Shown in pieces: positions 9,227 through 44,215 of a stretch of DNA of 64,000 nt (its first letter is position 1; the number at the start of each line of letters is the position of its first letter). This stretch comes from Marinomonas alcarazii (GTDB taxonomy: Bacteria > Pseudomonadota > Gammaproteobacteria > Pseudomonadales > Marinomonadaceae), in contig NZ_QKLW01000001.1 in NCBI RefSeq assembly GCF_003208215.1, forward strand, positions 496,001-560,000, written 5' to 3'. The position numbers and the translations under genes are program-made. A model generated the notes under the pieces. The model saw only the letters and a list, made by a program, of their open reading frames with translations. It had not been told where the DNA came from and ran no database searches.

Positions 9227-9279
9227 TGGTACCAGTAGGCGGACTCGAACCGCCACACCCGAAGGCAACGGATTTTGAA
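9227..9279 (-). pseudogene. 3' half of split host tRNA-Leu(CAA)
   Basis: Read on the minus strand this is the anticodon loop, 3' anticodon stem (UCCGU), variable arm, a perfect T stem (GGCGG with CCGCC around UUCGAGU), 3' acceptor strand UACUGGU and encoded ACCA. It has no 5' half next to it; the sequence beyond the anticodon loop is the mobile element. The missing 5' half is at 16293-16333: joined at the shared 9-bp core the two give a complete leucine tRNA with acceptor GCCAGUG/UACUGGU and anticodon stem ACGGA/UCCGU. In the integrated state it cannot make a tRNA. Confidence 0.9.
9271..9279. repeat. Left attachment core (attL)
   Basis: GATTTTGAA, identical to 16293-16301. On the tRNA strand it reads TTCAAAATC, covering the anticodon loop and the first stem bases. 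The flanking bases differ: CG on the host side here, and CTTAT on the element side. Confidence 0.8.
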
Positions 9280-9382: not shown

Positions 9383-10726
9383 ATGTTACCAAAATACGAG
9401 CGTTTAGCGAAGAATTTAGCGATTTATCGACTTAAAAATTCTAAAAATTTCTATGCCCGTATTCGTGTTAACGGGGTAGAGATAAAGCGAAGTTTGAAAG
9501 TTGCTGATGAAGATGAAGCAAAATTTCGAGCTTGGGAGCTTCGATCAGAGCTTGAAAATCGAAACAAGCAGGGTTTAGCTATTTTAGCAAATAAGAAAAT
9601 ATATGTTGAAGATATTATAAATAATGTAATTATTCAGTTAGATACTAAAAAAACACAACTACAAATCTATAAAGACTATAAAACAGTCTTTTCAAATTTC
9701 ATTATTCCTTTTTTTAAAAACGTCGAAATTATTGATTTTACAACTAAAAAAATTAGAGATTATTTTGATAGTCAAGAATTATCTGTTACGAGAAAAAACA
9801 TTAATAAAACTTGTTTTAAAATGATACTTGAATATTTAGAAGAAGAAAAAATAATTAAGAAAAATGATATTCCTATAATTCCTAAGGTAAAATCTTTTAA
9901 AGTTGAGGCAAGAGACGCTTTTAATGATGAAGATTTAAAGATTATTTTAGAGTATCTACCAAACTTTCACGAAATAGAAAAAAATGGACGAAAAGCTAAT
10001 TTTAAGACCGTTGAATATAGAAAAATATTAAATGAATACTTTATTATTTTGTTAGAAACGGGACTAAGGACGGGCGAAGAATTTATAAATTTGCGATTTA
10101 ACGATATAAAAAAGAAAAAACATTCATATTATAAAGATGATTTATTAATTGAAAATGATAATTATCTTGTAAAAATAACGAAAGGCAAGACTAAAAAATA
10201 TTCAAACGGTCGTGTTATTGCTTTAAGCTCAAAAGCAATAAATGCAATAGTTAATATTGCGAAAATCACCCAACAAGATAAAAACATCACAACTGAAAAT
10301 TTTATATATAGTAATAAGTTAATTCTAGAAACTTCTTTTAATAAAATCGCAGAATTTAGCGATATTTTTAAACAATTCACAGATTATTTAAAAGAAAGTA
10401 ATTTAATAAATACTCATTATACTTTATATAGTTGTCGTCATACATTCATTACTAAAAGATTAACGCAAGGCGTAGATATTTATCTAATTGCGAAATATGT
10501 TGGTAGTTCCGTTGAAATGATTGAAAAGTATTATGATAGTTATAAATTATCACAGCAAGTGCATATAGATAGTTTAACAAATTTTAATCGTGATGAATTA
10601 GAGCTAAAAGCGATTCTTAATAATATCTCGTATACTGATTATGATGATATTCCGCCCGATCCTACAGAAGCTGATCTTAAAAAGTTCCATAGAGATGCGG
10701 AAGAGTTTTTTAAAAATAATCAATGA
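9383..10726 (+). CDS. int: Tyrosine recombinase (integrase) of the element
   Basis: A 447-residue site-specific recombinase. Residues 1-65 resemble an arm-binding domain (YARIRVNGVEIKRSLK), about 75-165 the SAM-like core-binding domain, and about 175-395 the catalytic domain. The visible catalytic set is R229 (ETGLRTGEE), a beta-strand lysine in TKGKTKK (about 267-271), R352 and H353 in SCRHTF, and Y383 or Y384 in EKYYDS. The usual GHS motif is GSS here (about 374-376), so the last His/Trp ligand is not conserved. It is the first gene inside the left junction and must have cut the anticodon loop of tRNA-Leu. Its codons are AT-rich, unlike the host. Confidence 0.92.
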   Translation: MLPKYERLAKNLAIYRLKNSKNFYARIRVNGVEIKRSLKVADEDEAKFRAWELRSELENRNKQGLAILANKKIYVEDIINNVIIQLDTKKTQLQIYKDYKTVFSNFIIPFFKNVEIIDFTTKKIRDYFDSQELSVTRKNINKTCFKMILEYLEEEKIIKKNDIPIIPKVKSFKVEARDAFNDEDLKIILEYLPNFHEIEKNGRKANFKTVEYRKILNEYFIILLETGLRTGEEFINLRFNDIKKKKHSYYKDDLLIENDNYLVKITKGKTKKYSNGRVIALSSKAINAIVNIAKITQQDKNITTENFIYSNKLILETSFNKIAEFSDIFKQFTDYLKESNLINTHYTLYSCRHTFITKRLTQGVDIYLIAKYVGSSVEMIEKYYDSYKLSQQVHIDSLTNFNRDELELKAILNNISYTDYDDIPPDPTEADLKKFHRDAEEFFKNNQ

Positions 10727-10746: not shown

Positions 10747-11232
10747 ATGAAAAAATATGAAATAATCAAAGAACTAAGTGAAATAAAAAAACGAAAGAGT
10801 GGTTGGACTTATATTTTAATTTCCAAGGATAAAAAATATATGAAAATAGGGAAAACTAATTCTGACTTATGTAGAAGAATAAAAAATATAAATTCTGATA
10901 TAAATTATAAAGAATATAATTTTTCTTTTTTTATGGCGGTTAATTCGTCTAAACTAGAATTGTTATTTTTGACTTATTTTTCTCAATACAGAGCTTGTTA
11001 TCGTTGGAGTGATGGGAAAAACTCATTCACAGGTTTAAATCAAAAAGATTTAAGAGAAAAGGCAAGAAAAAAAGCAAATGAAATTTATAGCTCACCAACT
11101 TATCAAGAGATAAATAAAATATTATATGAGCATTCACAAATAACAAGATTAGAACTTTTTAAAATTCCACCGAGAAAAATAGCTTATAAATTAGATGCTA
11201 TTATTAATGATTTGATTAATAATTTAAAATAA
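10747..11232 (+). CDS. GIY-YIG / T5orf172-like domain protein
   Basis: A 161-residue protein whose first 100 residues fit the GIY-YIG nuclease fold as seen in T5orf172-type domains: GWTYILI (GIY position, residues 19-25), YMKIGKT (YIG position, about 31-37), then the arginine pair in LCRRIKNIN and a metal-binding candidate glutamate in SSKLELLFL. It starts 20 bases after the integrase stop and is probably cotranscribed. It could be a nuclease of the element; GIY-YIG enzymes are also common homing endonucleases of group I introns, but this gene is about 4.6 kb from the intron and not inside it. Its substrate is unknown. Confidence 0.65.
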   Translation: MKKYEIIKELSEIKKRKSGWTYILISKDKKYMKIGKTNSDLCRRIKNINSDINYKEYNFSFFMAVNSSKLELLFLTYFSQYRACYRWSDGKNSFTGLNQKDLREKARKKANEIYSSPTYQEINKILYEHSQITRLELFKIPPRKIAYKLDAIINDLINNLK

Positions 11233-11542: not shown

Positions 11543-11911
11543 ATGGAAAACAAAAGTAAAAACAATAGAAGAAAAAGCATTCACATAAGATTAGATGATT
11601 CAACTTTCGAATTGTTAAACGAGCAAAAAAGAAACTCAGGTTTTAAAAACTGGGAAGCTTTGATAATTCATTATATGAATAATGGAAAAGGCTTTAAAAG
11701 TGTTTATGTTGATAAAGATGGACATTCTTTAAAAGTATTAAATCACCTTATTAAGTATGGAAACAATCTTAATCAATTAGCTAAAATAGCAAATGAAAAA
11801 AAATCACTGAATGATGATGATATAAAGAAAATAAAAGATTTTCTTCATCAAGGTATTAAAGCTAAAAATTATTTCACAAAACACGTAAAGCAAGCGGGAA
11901 GGGGGAAATAA
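11543..11911 (+). CDS. mobC: MobC-like relaxosome accessory protein
   Basis: A 122-residue basic protein. The start (KSIHIRLDDSTFELLNEQKRNSG) looks like a ribbon-helix-helix DNA-binding unit, and the C-terminal half holds YGNNLNQLAKIAN, the hallmark (G-x-NLNQ-xA-xxxN) of MobC proteins. MobC binds oriT and opens DNA near the nick so that the relaxase can cut. AAAAGGA lies about eight bases before the ATG. Its stop codon overlaps the relaxase start by one base (TAATG), so translation is coupled. Confidence 0.82.
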   Translation: MENKSKNNRRKSIHIRLDDSTFELLNEQKRNSGFKNWEALIIHYMNNGKGFKSVYVDKDGHSLKVLNHLIKYGNNLNQLAKIANEKKSLNDDDIKKIKDFLHQGIKAKNYFTKHVKQAGRGK

Positions 11912-13905
11912 TGGCTATTTTCTCACTAAAACACGAAGCTACAACGATTAAGCAATTAAAAAAAGTTGTCAAATATAACAGCAATAACAAGCTAGGATTA
12001 AACAATTCTAATAATCCTAGATTGATTTCTGTTAGTTCTAATTGCGGTTATTGCTCAAATATAAATGATCAAAACGACTATAACCAGCTCGTAGATAACT
12101 TTATATTGTCAGTTGATGCTAATTCACAACTATCTAAAAATTCTCGCCAAAAATATCTATACGAGCATTCTATAATATCTTTTTCTAATGAAGATGATGA
12201 AAAGTTAGGTATGACCAACGCTTTAAAATTAGCTATAAAAACAGCTAAAAAATACGATCCTAATTTTGAAAAAACGCCATATATGATCTGGCCGCAGGTC
12301 GATAGTGGAAAGCTTCACTTTCACCTTGTGCGAGGTTATCACGACGAAATGGGCAACTACCATAGACAGAGTAATTCAGGGCTTAAAAGACAGGCAGCAG
12401 TTCAAAAAATCGAAAAAGATTATAAATTAACTTTAACGGGAAAAAATAATCCAGAAAATTACATATGGAAAATAGACGCTAACAATAAAAAAAAGAAAAT
12501 ATATGTTGCAAATTTAAGTGATGATCATAAAAAAATAGCTAAAAATAAATCAATTGATTATGATTTGAAAATTGACGAATTGGGCAATATTAAATATTCT
12601 TTGAAAACAAAAGAAAATAAATTAATTTCAGATATAAATAAGAATAAAGATATTCATAGAGAAAATAAAAAAATAGTTAATAATAAAATAAATGTAATCT
12701 ATGGAAAAATTACAGAATTAGAAAAGCCTATTAAATACAGTGTTTTTCAAATTTTTAAAAACTGGTTTACTGATCAAGTAAAAATTGACAAAGAATATAA
12801 GCAAAGCTTAATGAATGAGAATAAAAATGAAGTTTCAAAGCTTCAGGGTAAAATAGAAAACGACAGGGATAAAAGAAAAGATATTCATTACAATTTAATT
12901 GATAAAAAATTAATCAATGAGAAAGAAATTAATATCGTTAATAATAAAAAAAGACATATTTTAAATAAAAAAGATGATCTTTTAAATGATGATGATATTT
13001 TCTCAAATCTTAAAAACACTGTTAATAATGCTTATAGGAATTCTAAAAGTACAAAAGAATTTATTGATATACTAAATGATAATAAGATAGAAATTTATGT
13101 AAATAAAAGAGATAACGGAACAGGAGGAATAACATTCACATCATTAGATTATGATATTTCTCTTGCTGGCGGAAAAATTAACTCATATTTGACTTATGGC
13201 AAGATTAAAAAAAATGATGCTGACTTGTTCGAATACTTAAACAATAGAAGTTTTAAAAATGGTGAAAAATTAAGTATTGGTAATGATTTTAATGTCAAAG
13301 ATTTAAACTATAATTATAAGCAAGTTAGAAACACTGATGGTTCTTTATCGATTTTTTACAACAAAAAAGATGAATTAAAAAGACCAAATAATTTTAATTT
13401 AAAGATAAGTGAAGATAAAAAAACTATCTCATTAAGCCCAAATTCTAATACTTTTGATTTAGAATTGACTTATAAAATAGCAAAAGAAAACGGCTGGAAG
13501 GGTGCAAGTTCACAAAATAAAGAACTTACTTTAAATTCTATGAGAATATCATTTAAAAATAACAAAGATGATTTATTCTTTTTTCAATTAGAAAATTCTT
13601 TAATCTCTCTGGATGATGTCAAAAGTGTTGTTTTAAACGAAAAAATGAGTAATTCAAACTTGATCAATCTGTATGATAATAAATTAACAAACAATAGTAT
13701 TGATGAGCAAAGACAATTTGTATTATCAAATTTAGATAAAAGATATAATGTTAATTATGTTAAGCAAGAATTAAATAAAGATAGATCATTAAAAAGTATA
13801 TTAAATGACAAAGACGACTTAATAAGACTTAAAATAGATCATAAGAATGATTTAAATAATAATGTGAGAATTGAAAATTCAAATAAAAAACGTTATAAGT
13901 TTTAA
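11911..13905 (+). CDS. mobA: MobA/VirD2-like relaxase
   Basis: A 664-residue mobilisation protein. The relaxase domain fills about residues 1-190: H86 in YEHSIISF and the metal-binding H136-x-H138 in LHFHLVRGYHDEMGNYHRQ are the conserved relaxase histidine motifs. The nucleophilic tyrosine should be near the N terminus (Y22 is the first candidate; unproven). The rest is lysine/asparagine-rich, low in GC and partly coiled-coil; I see no helicase or primase motif. It would nick oriT and lead the strand into a recipient using another element's secretion system. It ends in a 4-base overlap with the convergent gene at 13902. Confidence 0.85.
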   Translation: MAIFSLKHEATTIKQLKKVVKYNSNNKLGLNNSNNPRLISVSSNCGYCSNINDQNDYNQLVDNFILSVDANSQLSKNSRQKYLYEHSIISFSNEDDEKLGMTNALKLAIKTAKKYDPNFEKTPYMIWPQVDSGKLHFHLVRGYHDEMGNYHRQSNSGLKRQAAVQKIEKDYKLTLTGKNNPENYIWKIDANNKKKKIYVANLSDDHKKIAKNKSIDYDLKIDELGNIKYSLKTKENKLISDINKNKDIHRENKKIVNNKINVIYGKITELEKPIKYSVFQIFKNWFTDQVKIDKEYKQSLMNENKNEVSKLQGKIENDRDKRKDIHYNLIDKKLINEKEINIVNNKKRHILNKKDDLLNDDDIFSNLKNTVNNAYRNSKSTKEFIDILNDNKIEIYVNKRDNGTGGITFTSLDYDISLAGGKINSYLTYGKIKKNDADLFEYLNNRSFKNGEKLSIGNDFNVKDLNYNYKQVRNTDGSLSIFYNKKDELKRPNNFNLKISEDKKTISLSPNSNTFDLELTYKIAKENGWKGASSQNKELTLNSMRISFKNNKDDLFFFQLENSLISLDDVKSVVLNEKMSNSNLINLYDNKLTNNSIDEQRQFVLSNLDKRYNVNYVKQELNKDRSLKSILNDKDDLIRLKIDHKNDLNNNVRIENSNKKRYKF

Positions 13906-14534
13906 TAGTAAAACTTATAGTGTTCTTCTAAAACTGGGGAATTTTTATTTTTGGGATATTTATATTCGACATCTACATTTAAGCTTTTAAAAGCTTGTTT
14001 AATTTTGAATATTCTTCTGTCTCTTCGCTCAATTTTATACAGGTCTAAAACTTTAAATAAATAATTTACGTCTAAATAGCCACTTGGTTTCATCGCTAAA
14101 ATCATCGCTAATTTAGTTGTTCTTATATCCTTTATACTTTTCAATGTTTTTAGTTCTAATTTATTAAAACCGCTTTTTTCCATAGTTTTTATATATAAAT
14201 CAGTAAAAGTAAAACTTATGGTTTTATTTTCTAAATCATAATCAATAAAATCGAAAAATTTTGACATTGTTATTTCATTAGTTCTTAAAAACTTTTCGAT
14301 ATAAATAAAACTTAAAGTAGCTCTACATAAATAACTATCACTTGCAAAAAAGTTTTTTAATGAAAAAGTCAAATAGTTTTCATTTGTTTTGTTATTCTTA
14401 TAAATCATCGTTGCGTTTGATAAGATCGCAACAAATAGTTTAATGTCGTGATTTTGTTTAAAATCAAATAATTCATAATGTAGTTTGTTTTCTCTGTTCA
14501 TTAATTCTCTCGCTATTGTAAAGTATTGGATCAT
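13902..14534 (-). CDS. Candidate replication initiator (Rep_3-like)
   Basis: A 210-residue protein I cannot name with certainty. It is leftward, convergent with the relaxase, and its upstream region holds five iteron-like repeats. The pattern fits a two-winged-helix plasmid initiator: an N-terminal part with a beta strand and helix (YLTFSLKNFFASDSYLC), a central ISFTFTDLYIKTME strand-helix, then KDIRTTKLAMILAM, GYLDVNYLFKVLDL and RDRRIFKIKQAFKSLN resembling the second winged helix of RepE/Pi-type proteins. AAGGA lies about nine bases before the ATG. The role is inferred from context and pattern; an element-specific regulator is the alternative. Confidence 0.5.
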   Translation of the reverse strand: MIQYFTIARELMNRENKLHYELFDFKQNHDIKLFVAILSNATMIYKNNKTNENYLTFSLKNFFASDSYLCRATLSFIYIEKFLRTNEITMSKFFDFIDYDLENKTISFTFTDLYIKTMEKSGFNKLELKTLKSIKDIRTTKLAMILAMKPSGYLDVNYLFKVLDLYKIERRDRRIFKIKQAFKSLNVDVEYKYPKNKNSPVLEEHYKFYY

Positions 14535-15197: not shown

Positions 15198-15497
15198 TTA
15201 TATACTAGAATTCATTGCTAACGATAATTTCAAGTCAATTCCAGCTCCTATTTGAATAGTGCAGTAAGTATATACTCTTGTCATTGCTTTAAGTTGTTCA
15301 TCTGATGACATGAGATCAAATTCTAATTCTTTTTGAGAAAAAATTAAGCTCTGATGGAATACATTCATAAAATTTTGATTGAAAGATCGATCTGATAAGA
15401 CTTTTCTATATTCATCTGTATACTCACTGCATCTATCAAGTGCGAAAGAATTTAAGCTAAATACTGAAATTAGAGTTGTTAATAATATTTTTTTCAT
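15198..15497 (-). CDS. Small secreted protein of unknown function
   Basis: A 99-residue protein starting MKKILLTTLISVFSLNSFA, a clear Sec signal peptide with cleavage likely after SFA (about residue 19). The start at 15497 is preferred to an in-frame ATG 42 bases upstream because AGGAG lies nine bases before it. The mature part of about 80 residues is helical-looking and has two cysteines (RCSEY near its N terminus and YTYCTI), which could pair in the periplasm. I recognise no family. As element cargo it could be an exclusion or periplasmic fitness factor; that is a guess. Confidence 0.6.
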   Translation of the reverse strand: MKKILLTTLISVFSLNSFALDRCSEYTDEYRKVLSDRSFNQNFMNVFHQSLIFSQKELEFDLMSSDEQLKAMTRVYTYCTIQIGAGIDLKLSLAMNSSI

Positions 15498-15803
15498 TTT
15501 TTGATAATCTCCTATATATATCAATATATATAAAAGCATTATCTTACATTAAGTCAATATATAAGCTTTCAATATTGACAACTTGAAAAAAATATAAATA
15601 AAATAGGCGTATAAAAACTAACTGAGTGATATGAATCTTGAATTACCAATATGTTAGTAGTATTTGGTATAAAGGGATTCTAAATCGTTATATTTTATTG
15701 TTCATTTCGATTTTATTATAATTCTGTGTTGAATTTTCTGCTTTATATATAATTTACTTTTGGCTTCTAAGGTAAGTTATATTATAAAAATTGATATATT
15801 TGA

Positions 15804-15836
15804 TAAAAAAAAGCCCCTATAAAGGGGCATTTTTTT
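15804..15836 (-). terminator. Terminator of the element tRNA-Leu gene
   Basis: GCCCC/GGGGC hairpin followed by eight T on the minus strand, directly after the CCA end of the intron-containing tRNA (15839). The gap 15498-15838 upstream of it holds nothing else that I can see. Confidence 0.8.
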
Positions 15837-15838
15837 AA

Positions 15839-16184
15839 TGGTAGCGGTAGCCAGACTCGAACTGGCACGCCCGAAAGCACAGGATTTTGACTTTTAAAGG
15901 ACTATATCATCACCCTAAAGTAGGGGCTGGACGCTGTTTCACAAAGCTATTAACACCTTGCTAATTCCTGTTATTAAGCCTATTCGCATAAGCTCAGGTA
16001 GTCTCTGAACCTTCCCAGCTCTGTGGGCTTGGCTGCTGATCGTCGGTCAGGAGTTCCAGCAATTCATCCAGTTTTTACAATGTAATTACTTACAAAGTGG
16101 ACCCATTATTTTTTTCTTTCTGCTTTAAATAAGCAGTTTTTAGACACATTAATCCAGCGTGTCTACCAATTCCACCATACCGCC
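15839..16184 (-). tRNA. Element-borne tRNA-Leu(CAA) interrupted by a group I intron
   Basis: Two exons on the minus strand: 16184-16152 (5') and 15890-15839 (3', including encoded CCA). Joined, they give an 85-nt leucine tRNA: acceptor GGCGGUA/UACCGCU with G1-U72, U8, a leucine-type D arm (UGGAAUUGGUAGACAC), anticodon loop UUCAAAA with anticodon CAA, a long variable arm (UGCUUUCGGGCGU), a perfect T stem (GCCAG/CUGGC around UUCGAGU) and discriminator A. One mismatch, U28-U42, is in the anticodon stem. The acceptor differs from that of the host split tRNA-Leu, so this is not a duplicate of the host gene. It lies inside the element, between the terminator and the right arm sites, and would read UUG codons in place of the broken host tRNA. 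Confidence 0.88.
15891..16151 (-). other. Group I self-splicing intron (261 nt) in tRNA-Leu anticodon loop
   Basis: Conserved core on the minus strand: P AAUUGCUGGA (16055-16064), Q GAUCAGCAGCC (16031-16041), R GGUUCAGAGACUACCU (15996-16011), S GAUGAUAUAGUCC (15899-15911). Pairings found: P4 UGCUG/CAGCA; P7 GACUA/UAGUC; P3 CUGGAU (16066-16071) with GUCCAG (15927-15932); P8 CCCUA-CUU-UAGGG (15913-15925); P7.1 AGCUUAU-GCGA-AUAGGCU (15977-15994); P7.2 CAAGG/CUUUG (15942-15960). The guide GUCCA (16098-16102) pairs with 5' exon UGGAU, ending in the required U-G wobble, and the adjoining UGG pairs with 3' exon UCA (P10). The intron ends in G. P7.1 and P7.2 point to a subgroup IA-like fold. No open reading frame lies inside. 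Confidence 0.9.
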
Positions 16185-16292: not shown

Positions 16293-16301
16293 GATTTTGA
16301 A
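16293..16301. repeat. Right attachment core (attR)
   Basis: GATTTTGAA, identical to the left core at 9271-9279. Host tRNA sequence (TCCGTCGTG) follows it on the right; element sequence (CCGTTTC) precedes it on the left. Confidence 0.8.
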
Positions 16302-16333
16302 TCCGTCGTGTCTACCAATTCCACCACACTGGC
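16293..16333 (-). pseudogene. 5' half of split host tRNA-Leu(CAA)
   Basis: On the minus strand: acceptor GCCAGUG, U8, a leucine D arm (GUGGAAUUGGUAGACAC), anticodon stem ACGGA and loop UUCAAAA, then one base of the 3' stem before element sequence takes over. After the core the sequence (GAAACGG) cannot close the anticodon stem. The matching 3' half is at 9227-9279. Its promoter remains intact, so a dead 5' fragment is probably still transcribed. Confidence 0.9.
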
Positions 16334-16352: not shown

Positions 16353-16380
16353 ATTTTAGGGTATTTCCAATATATGTCAA
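16353..16380 (-). promoter_or_regulatory. Promoter of the ancestral host tRNA-Leu
   Basis: Consensus TTGACA (16375-16380) and TAAAAT (16353-16358) with 16-base spacing on the minus strand, about 20 bases before the tRNA 5' half. After integration it reads through the broken half and attR toward the element tRNA about 110 bases further on. The remaining 110 bases to queA hold no clear signal. Confidence 0.8.
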
Positions 16381-43860: not shown

Positions 43861-44215
43861 GCGTCGCAAGTTGGCTAGGCAGTCGCCGCTCAATTTATTG
43901 GGGGGAGGAAAGTCCGGGCTTCGCAGGGTAAAGTGCCAGGTAACGCCTGGGGGGCGTGAGCCTACGGAAAGTGCAGCAGAAAATATACCGCCTAAGCAGT
44001 TTACTGCCGGTAAGGTTGAAATGGTGCGGTAAGAGCGCACCGCGCGACTGGCAACAGTTCGTGGCAAGGTAAACCCCACTTGAAGCAAGACCAAATAGGA
44101 ACTCTTTGGCGTGACCCGCGCTGAGTTCGGGTAGGTTGCTAAAGACGTGCAGTGATGTACGTATTAGATGAATGACTGTCCACGACAGAACCCGGCTTAT
44201 CGGCCAACTTGCACA
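43861..44215 (+). ncRNA. rnpB: RNase P RNA (class A)
   Basis: The catalytic RNA of RNase P. The ends GCAAGTTGGC (43866) and GCCAACTTGC (to 44212) form P1. GGGGAGGAAAGTCCGGGCT and the 3' ACAGAACCCGGCTTAT are the universal P4/CR regions, and GGTAAACCCCACTTG and AGCAAGACCAAATAGG are also conserved. It matures tRNA 5' ends, including the intron-containing one here. Ends are exact to a few bases. Confidence 0.95.

Follow-up and report, generated by a model that had tools for sequence, protein, structure and literature searches.

The window analyzed here is a stretch of 64,000 nucleotides from Marinomonas alcarazii, on the minus strand of which ARAGORN, run in its intron mode, finds a tRNA-Leu(caa) gene at positions 15839-16184, with a mature form of 85 nt and a 261-nt intron placed after the 33 nt of exon 1. 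An initial annotation made from the sequence alone had given the same coordinates, intron length, leucine tRNA and cut after U32, and the two agree to the base. That annotation had also anticipated that a standard tRNA finder would probably miss the gene or return only a fragment; without the intron option ARAGORN reports no tRNA anywhere in the window. Read along the minus strand, the 5′ exon extends up to U32 (16152..16184) and is followed by the group I intron between U32 and U33, which ends in a G (15891..16151), and by the 3′ exon from U33 to the CCA (15839..15890), the exons being placed by ARAGORN and the sequence itself and the intron by RF00028, ARAGORN and covariation. The annotation had proposed a search with the Rfam group I covariance model as a check, and this gave a match to RF00028 at 16140-15879 (minus strand) with 62.6 bits against a cut-off of 50 and an E-value of 1.7e-13. 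From the sequence alone the cut might also be placed one base further on, as both possible junctions have a U; on the basis of the terminal-G rule and the U.G pair we favor U32/U33 as the splice junction. The predicted spliced form is a cloverleaf with a CAA anticodon and a long variable arm, called as tRNA-Leu(caa), with a single mismatch, U28.U42, in the anticodon stem. The pairing of U28 with the intron guide is nevertheless intact, which looks as though P1 had been preserved at the stem's expense. With 261 nt, the intron lacks the length for a homing endonuclease. A terminator-like hairpin with a T-run lies 3′ of the gene (15813..15828, minus strand), five such sites having been found against 0.6 expected. 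Elsewhere, the window holds an ordinary bacterial class A RNase P RNA (43867-44215, plus strand; 326.7 bits).

The initial annotation knew of no tRNA-Leu(CAA) case on an integrative element in a marine gammaproteobacterium. The intron is not unique: the same U32/U33 site of tRNA-Leu(CAA) is filled in eight further genomes (G097, G272, G126, G246, G112, G285, G116 and G013), and we aligned the nine introns. Pairs were counted on a group I structure from P1 to P8, comprising P1, P2, P3, P4, P5, P6, P6a, P7, P8 and two hairpins, with 62 pairs that include no tRNA stem and, of the exon, only the part forming P1. On this structure 94.6% of the cells are paired in the nine homologs, and 25 of the 62 pairs show changes on both sides, compared to 15.2 ± 2.1 in shuffles (0 of 500 as high) and 3-8 when the structure is slid; a second measure, that of further pair types, is less clear (46 versus 40.5 in shuffles, with 19 of 500 as high). 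The covarying helices are P1, P2, P3, P5, P6a, P8 (80% of cells paired) and the two hairpins after P7. All nine sequences pair in P4, P6 proper and P7 (with five of five pairs in every sequence for P7), and these helices are invariant; covariation is thus uninformative on them. Together with the RF00028 match, the 25 covarying pairs uphold the identification of a group I intron in a tRNA-Leu(CAA) on the minus strand, and the core helices placed at the outset, P3, P4, P7 and P8, all pair across the nine homologs. The same applies to the proposed P1 guide ending in a U-G wobble: GUCC and one further base form a helix with exon positions 28-32 that covaries at position 28 (C-G in seven, U-A in M. 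alcarazii and G-C in one), and the splice-site U.G is retained in nine of nine, with the terminal G present in the alignment. The 3-bp P10 was also read by eye in the M. alcarazii sequence (UGG with UCA, including one wobble), and by the same means some homologs were seen to have fewer P10 pairs. Among the readings discarded were a guide at a nearer GUGUCU, replaced by the GUCC of alignment columns 93-96, whose helix covaries, and a structure from RNAalifold (32 of 84 pairs). In the latter, nine of the 32 are tRNA stems, and helix 13 pairs the intron with the exon outside the group I fold and never covaries; for this reason the pairs were recounted with P7 and P8 written in. A chance resemblance or pseudo-intron was ruled out by the Rfam E-value and the covariation.

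The intron-bearing gene lies near one end of an element that splits a resident tRNA-Leu(CAA) gene. The 5′ half of the latter (16293..16333, minus strand) carries the 9-bp integration core TTCAAAATC in its anticodon loop (16293..16301, minus strand) and is followed by non-tRNA element sequence; the 3′ half with its CCA is found at 9227..9279 on the same strand, with the same core at 9271..9279, the core-to-core span of the element being 7,022 bp. Joined at the core, the two halves are identical to an intact second copy in the same genome (G000:C1:112242). An integrase and a split target with an identical core at both ends are thus present, as in tRNA islands; the restoration from an attP fragment that marks such islands is absent, a separate whole gene being carried instead. 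As the 5′ half does not continue into a tRNA 3′ half, integration leaves the resident gene unrestored. The whole substitute gene starts 108 nt inside the element end; the core is missing from its DNA, where the intron splits it, and is restored in the spliced form. The initial annotation had placed the gene on a mobile element, as the PF00589 integrase and the resident tRNA split with the same core at both ends bear out. It overlooked the main point, namely that the element-borne tRNA replaces the resident gene split by the element, with the intron lying inside the integration core.

Within the element, the tyrosine integrase (447 aa; 9383..10726, plus strand; PF00589, E 1.2e-9), whose relatives are found at split tRNA-Leu genes, is followed by a small protein with a domain match to the MUG113/T5orf172/GIY-YIG-like group (10747..11232, plus strand), which has no match in three related Marinomonas elements. 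Next come a MobC-like mobilization protein (11543..11911, plus strand; PF05713, E 2.1e-5) and a 664-aa protein (11911..13905, plus strand) that is relaxase-like solely by its position after mobC and an HFH motif recognized by eye, no family, plasmid or structure match having been found for it. On the minus strand lie a 210-aa protein kept in all four Marinomonas elements (13902..14534) and a 113-aa protein without a match in the related elements (15198..15539). These contents point to an integrative element that is probably mobilizable. A role of the GIY-YIG-like ORF as a homing endonuclease of the intron is not supported, as it has no counterpart in the intron-bearing elements of G097; its one weak PADLOC match, to a Csm2-like protein, was taken as chance. 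A sigma-70-like promoter with 11 of 12 consensus matches precedes the resident 5′ half (16353..16380, minus strand), two such sites having been found on both strands against 2.2 expected; it may also drive the substitute tRNA. A queA-like gene, recognized by eye, comes next on the far side of the resident 5′ half.

Relatives of the integrase at E ≤ 1e-15 were found in three of the 48 genomes of the genus: M. alcarazii, G097 with two copies, and G193 (M. pollencensis) with one. A pattern for split 5′ halves that is blind to introns recovered the same four sites in these 48 genomes and none further, and at all four the 5′ half continues into non-tRNA sequence. The two copies in G097, a one-contig genome of another species, are 99.84% alike over 7,379 bp and occupy one resident tRNA-Leu(CAA) gene each; two patterns found no intact tRNA-Leu(CAA) in this genome, whose substitute has a perfect anticodon stem. 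The substitute of G193 is intronless. The integrase, mobC, the 664-aa protein and the 210-aa protein are common to all four elements, and the integrase is 88% identical between closely related elements with and without an intron in the substitute. A further Marinomonas, G398, has, 111 nt past a truncated 5′ segment of a tRNA, a tRNA-Arg(UCU) containing a group I intron (L024, 8376-8837), with a resolvase-like ORF and large ATPase-like genes (named by eye) among its neighbors; the other end was not found.

Beyond the genus, a Saccharospirillum (L015) has an integrase of 33% identity with a split tRNA-Leu(UAA) and an intronless substitute. In G015 (L017), an integrase of 28% identity adjoins a tRNA-Leu(CAA) 3′ half, the split 5′ half and an intronless substitute being on another contig, and in G382 (L016) an integrase relative adjoins an intact tRNA-Leu(CAA). 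No integrase relative was found in plasmid and phage records or in viral contigs, and the intron-bearing gene had no match in plasmids; pattern scans gave one chance match in a phage gene in the viral contigs and two loci in genome contigs, the chosen patterns probably being poor. RF00028 matches were recovered in 56 of 369 genomes of the class (70 matches) and in 32 of 390 genomes of the order (42 matches). At 26 of the 30 best class loci they are tRNA introns, with ARAGORN calling those of tRNA-Ile(CAU) Gln or Met. Many gammaproteobacteria have introns in tRNA-Ile(CAU), Leu(UAA), Arg(CCU), Lys(CUU) and others at which no split half was found (L034-L103). A search of up to 2 kb upstream at 40 of the 70 class loci, with far less sequence at some (e.g., L083), found a split half of the same tRNA for none of 36 tRNA introns, L073 having a 13-nt repeat of the tRNA start upstream; the idea that all tRNA introns in the class are carried by islands was therefore rejected.

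In the order, inspection of the flanks showed that 11 of the 42 intron matches adjoin a split resident tRNA of the same kind, equivalent to 11 of 38 tRNA introns, as four matches (L106, L111, L147 and L166) are not in a tRNA recognized by ARAGORN. These are the introns of M. alcarazii, G097 (twice), G126 and G272 in tRNA-Leu(CAA), of G212, G192 and G377 in tRNA-Leu(UAA), and of G114, G117 and G251 in tRNA-Ile(CAU), with the tRNA-Arg(UCU) of G398 from the genus search as a twelfth case. Both halves were found for M. alcarazii, the two G097 elements, G126 (16 kb), G212 (96 kb), G192 (51 kb) and G251 (8.8 kb, with a PF00589 protein), and only the 5′ half for the remaining cases within the sequence examined. 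The G251 integrase was missed by a screen with profiles from the M. alcarazii integrase family and recovered with Pfam. The 96- and 51-kb elements of G212 and G192 (L156-L157, L168-L175) have an integrase-like ORF at the far end, confirmed by PF00589 and PF13356 for G212 only, with MerR-like and reductase-like ORFs nearby (by eye) and the intron-bearing tRNA-Leu(UAA) at the opposite end. Ten of the 11 halves stop within or at the anticodon loop; that of G251 stops in the T-loop. A comparison of cut sites with the Islander base rate is weak: seven of eight lineages are cut in the anticodon loop (p = 0.051), the lineages having been picked by eye and G398 omitted as its cut is unclear. In G114 (L150), a split tRNA-Ile(CAU) 5′ half lies upstream, and the 3′ part of a different tRNA lies downstream, its T-arm about 75 nt after the intron-bearing gene. 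In G334 (L197), 10.5 kb separate two intact tRNA-Leu(CAA) genes of the same orientation, and an ordinary island may lie between them.

We also sampled tRNA-Leu(CAA) genes without regard to introns. The 5′-half pattern matched in 237 of the 390 genomes of the order, and eight of the 150 sites listed were judged split by eye. A whole substitute is present at all eight, four with an intron (M. alcarazii, G097 twice, and G126) and four without (G193, G015, G180 and G003); G272 is also split, lies outside the 150 and was left out of this count. Introns are commoner in substitutes (4 of 8) than in other tRNA-Leu(CAA) genes (5 of 147; Fisher p = 3.4e-4, or 0.017 with close kin collapsed and substitutes at 2 of 5), an enrichment that is only suggestive since the count of five is probably too low. 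The 147 comprise 142 intact genes and five intron-bearing ones with no split half found (G246, G112, G285, G116 and G013), the latter coming from a separate search with stricter filters; some of these are on short contigs, and only those of G116 and G013 could be assigned to a resident locus. In G003 (L195, 14907-15156), the order is a resident 5′ half, an attachment arm, a second tRNA-Leu(CAA) 5′ half, a similar arm and a whole intronless substitute. The simplest reading of this single case, seen from 5′ halves only, is that a second, related element entered the intronless substitute of the first, an insertion that a core interrupted by an intron would not allow.

Hairpins between the 5′ strand of P7 and the 3′ strand of P3 are a trait of subgroup IA, and the classical tRNA introns belong to IC3. 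The tRNA-Leu(CAA) intron has two hairpins in this position, and hairpins also occur there in the introns found to be closest to it outside tRNA-Leu(CAA), which lie at marine-phage DNA polymerase genes. The sampled tRNA-Ile(CAU) introns have such a hairpin as well, and it is absent from those of tRNA-Leu(UAA) and tRNA-Arg where P7 could be placed. The intron matches 42 phage records, the best at 83.8% over 142 nt, with the context viewed for two and Rfam run on one. In one of the phages, Vibrio phage 424E50-1 (L018, 1411-1972), two successive group I matches, neither annotated in the record, begin where the annotated DNA polymerase gene ends. A tree built from short, divergent sequences, mostly with intron ends as given by ARAGORN and with 12 nt of exon 2 included in the M. 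alcarazii row, unites the tRNA-Leu(CAA) and phage introns with a support of 0.905, the tRNA-Leu(CAA) introns as one group reaching only 0.54. In the same tree the element-borne tRNA-Leu(UAA) introns of G377 and G212 pair apart from the sampled resident ones. As the element-borne introns are scattered over several places in the tree, the association between intron and element probably arose more than once.

The sequence itself shows the split resident gene, the core, the whole substitute with its intron, the covariation and the lack of the core in the substitute's DNA, and we regard it as highly probable that this substitute replaces the resident gene and yields an 85-nt tRNA-Leu(CAA). In the mechanism we envisage, the tyrosine integrase would insert the element at the core TTCAAAATC in the tRNA-Leu(CAA) anticodon loop; this would destroy the resident gene, with no rebuilding from an attP fragment, and the element would supply its own whole tRNA-Leu(CAA) from 108 nt inside its end. 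In the precursor of this substitute, the guide is predicted to pair with exon positions 28-32, the cut to follow U32 and the 261-nt intron to leave, giving an 85-nt tRNA that would be charged and used by the cell. Lastly, the intron would keep the substitute from becoming an integration target itself. On the sequence evidence, splicing and substitution are likely, and the masking of the integration site by the intron is plausible.

The role of the intron can be read in two ways. The first casts it as a neutral passenger, a selfish ribozyme that colonized tRNA-Leu(CAA), with the element capturing such a gene or the substitute being colonized later, to no benefit; we give this nearly an even chance. 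It accounts for the same intron at the same site in the two genes beside queA (by eye) in G116 and G013, where no split half was found, and for its lack in four of the eight substitutes of the intron-blind sample. The placement of the tRNA-Leu(CAA) introns beside those of marine-phage DNA polymerase genes fits it too, as does G251, whose anticodon-loop intron masks nothing, since the cut is in the T-loop. The second reading holds that the intron breaks the core against insertion by the same or a rival element while splicing repairs the RNA, making it a domesticated self-immunity device gained repeatedly with different integrases and tRNAs; in this full form we hold it tentatively, as somewhat less likely than not. 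It is favored by the position of the intron in the core, by G003 and by the enrichment. The latter, whose five cases among other genes may be an undercount, stands against a mere passenger, as does the separate pairing of the element-borne tRNA-Leu(UAA) introns of G377 and G212. The coincidence of intron and core is partly built in, since the intron mode of ARAGORN searches the anticodon loop only. The intronless substitutes of M. pollencensis, G015, G003, G180 and Saccharospirillum and the T-loop cut of G251 speak against masking as a rule, and the same intronless cases rule out that a substitute needs an intron at all.

The reading in which the element-borne gene substitutes for the resident one also has to be weighed against the possibility that it is a decaying, unused tRNA, with the second resident copy or tRNA-Leu(UAA) doing the work. 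UUG can be read by tRNA-Leu(UAA), and E. coli tolerates the loss of tRNA-Leu(CAA). The M. alcarazii substitute may be dispensable, since an intact second tRNA-Leu(CAA) is present and its own stem has the U28.U42 mismatch. Yet the compensating changes in tRNA stems and intron helices across the nine sequences, and G097, where two patterns find no intact gene and the anticodon stem of the substitute is perfect, make decay improbable. An ordinary tRNA island, restoring its tRNA in the way described for such islands in passages of PMC4383910, with the apparent split being a second, older fragment, is very improbable: it is excluded for the M. alcarazii element, as the two halves have an identical core and, when joined, reproduce the intact gene exactly, and it is at odds with the non-tRNA sequence after the 5′ half at all four Marinomonas sites. 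An assembly error or chance resemblance has nothing found in its favor and a negligible probability, given the Rfam match and a second species whose genome, assembled in one contig, has this arrangement in two places.

If substitution is correct, tRNA-targeting elements would have a second way of sparing the host, by replacing the whole gene rather than restoring it from an attP fragment. Such elements would probably be misinterpreted or overlooked by island finders that assume restoration and tRNAs without introns. Group I introns, usually viewed as passengers, are here linked to integration sites, and the system would allow a direct test in bacteria of the idea that introns protect tRNA genes from integration, since a single integrase and a single core occur with natural substitutes of both kinds, intron-bearing and intronless. 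G097 further offers a natural in vivo test of splicing, as the patterns find no intact tRNA-Leu(CAA) beside its intron-bearing ones.

Known bacterial tRNA group I introns include those of cyanobacterial tRNA-Leu(UAA) and tRNA-fMet, of tRNA-Ile(CAU) in Azoarcus and of proteobacterial tRNA-Arg(CCU), and a tRNA-Leu(UAA) intron from a gammaproteobacterium was reportedly described in 2002. The intron studied here resembles them in its anticodon-loop site, lack of an ORF and length of about 250 nt. It differs in its tRNA and position (tRNA-Leu(CAA) at U32/U33, whereas the sampled tRNA-Leu(UAA) introns follow U34), in the two hairpins between P7 5′ and P3 3′ that it has in common with phage introns, and in being borne by a mobile element, within a substitute for a split gene. 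Among the records listed in searches of the mainly open-access literature, none reports a tRNA-Leu(CAA) with a group I intron at U32/U33, or substitute tRNAs with introns on islands of bacteria; the terms "integrase", "genomic island" and "attachment" are absent from the main text of a review of bacterial group I introns (PMC3984707), and the passages of PMC6125680 and PMC11835236 concerned add nothing on the question. Like islands of the Islander class, the element has a tyrosine integrase, a short core in the anticodon loop and a resident tRNA split at both ends; unlike them, it has an attP without tRNA restoration and carries a whole substitute, a gene unseen by ARAGORN in its default mode.

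Archaeal tRNA introns are cut by a protein endonuclease. That introns shield tRNA genes from integration is an idea from archaea, set out in passages of PMC3293823, PMC4390854 and PMC4090602, the first of which raises the possibility that an element is protected by the intron it brings. A close parallel is the Caldiarchaeum tRNA-Thr, discussed in PMC3293823 in connection with the idea of Randau and Soell, where an element-brought intron inside a tRNA attachment site is likewise a proposed bar to further integration; there, however, an archaeal tRNA intron lies in a reconstituted tRNA, whereas here a ribozyme in a bacterium lies in a separate substitute beside the split gene. The group I introns in the T-loop of tmRNA (PMC11915505) similarly occupy a tRNA-like gene often targeted by islands, but in a resident gene, and the passages in question do not tie them to the attachment sites of islands. 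Finally, the IStrons (PMC4227781) also combine a group I intron with a mobile element, which keeps the harm of insertion small; in these, intron and transposon form one unit inserted in genes, whereas in the Marinomonas element the intron sits only in the substitute tRNA.
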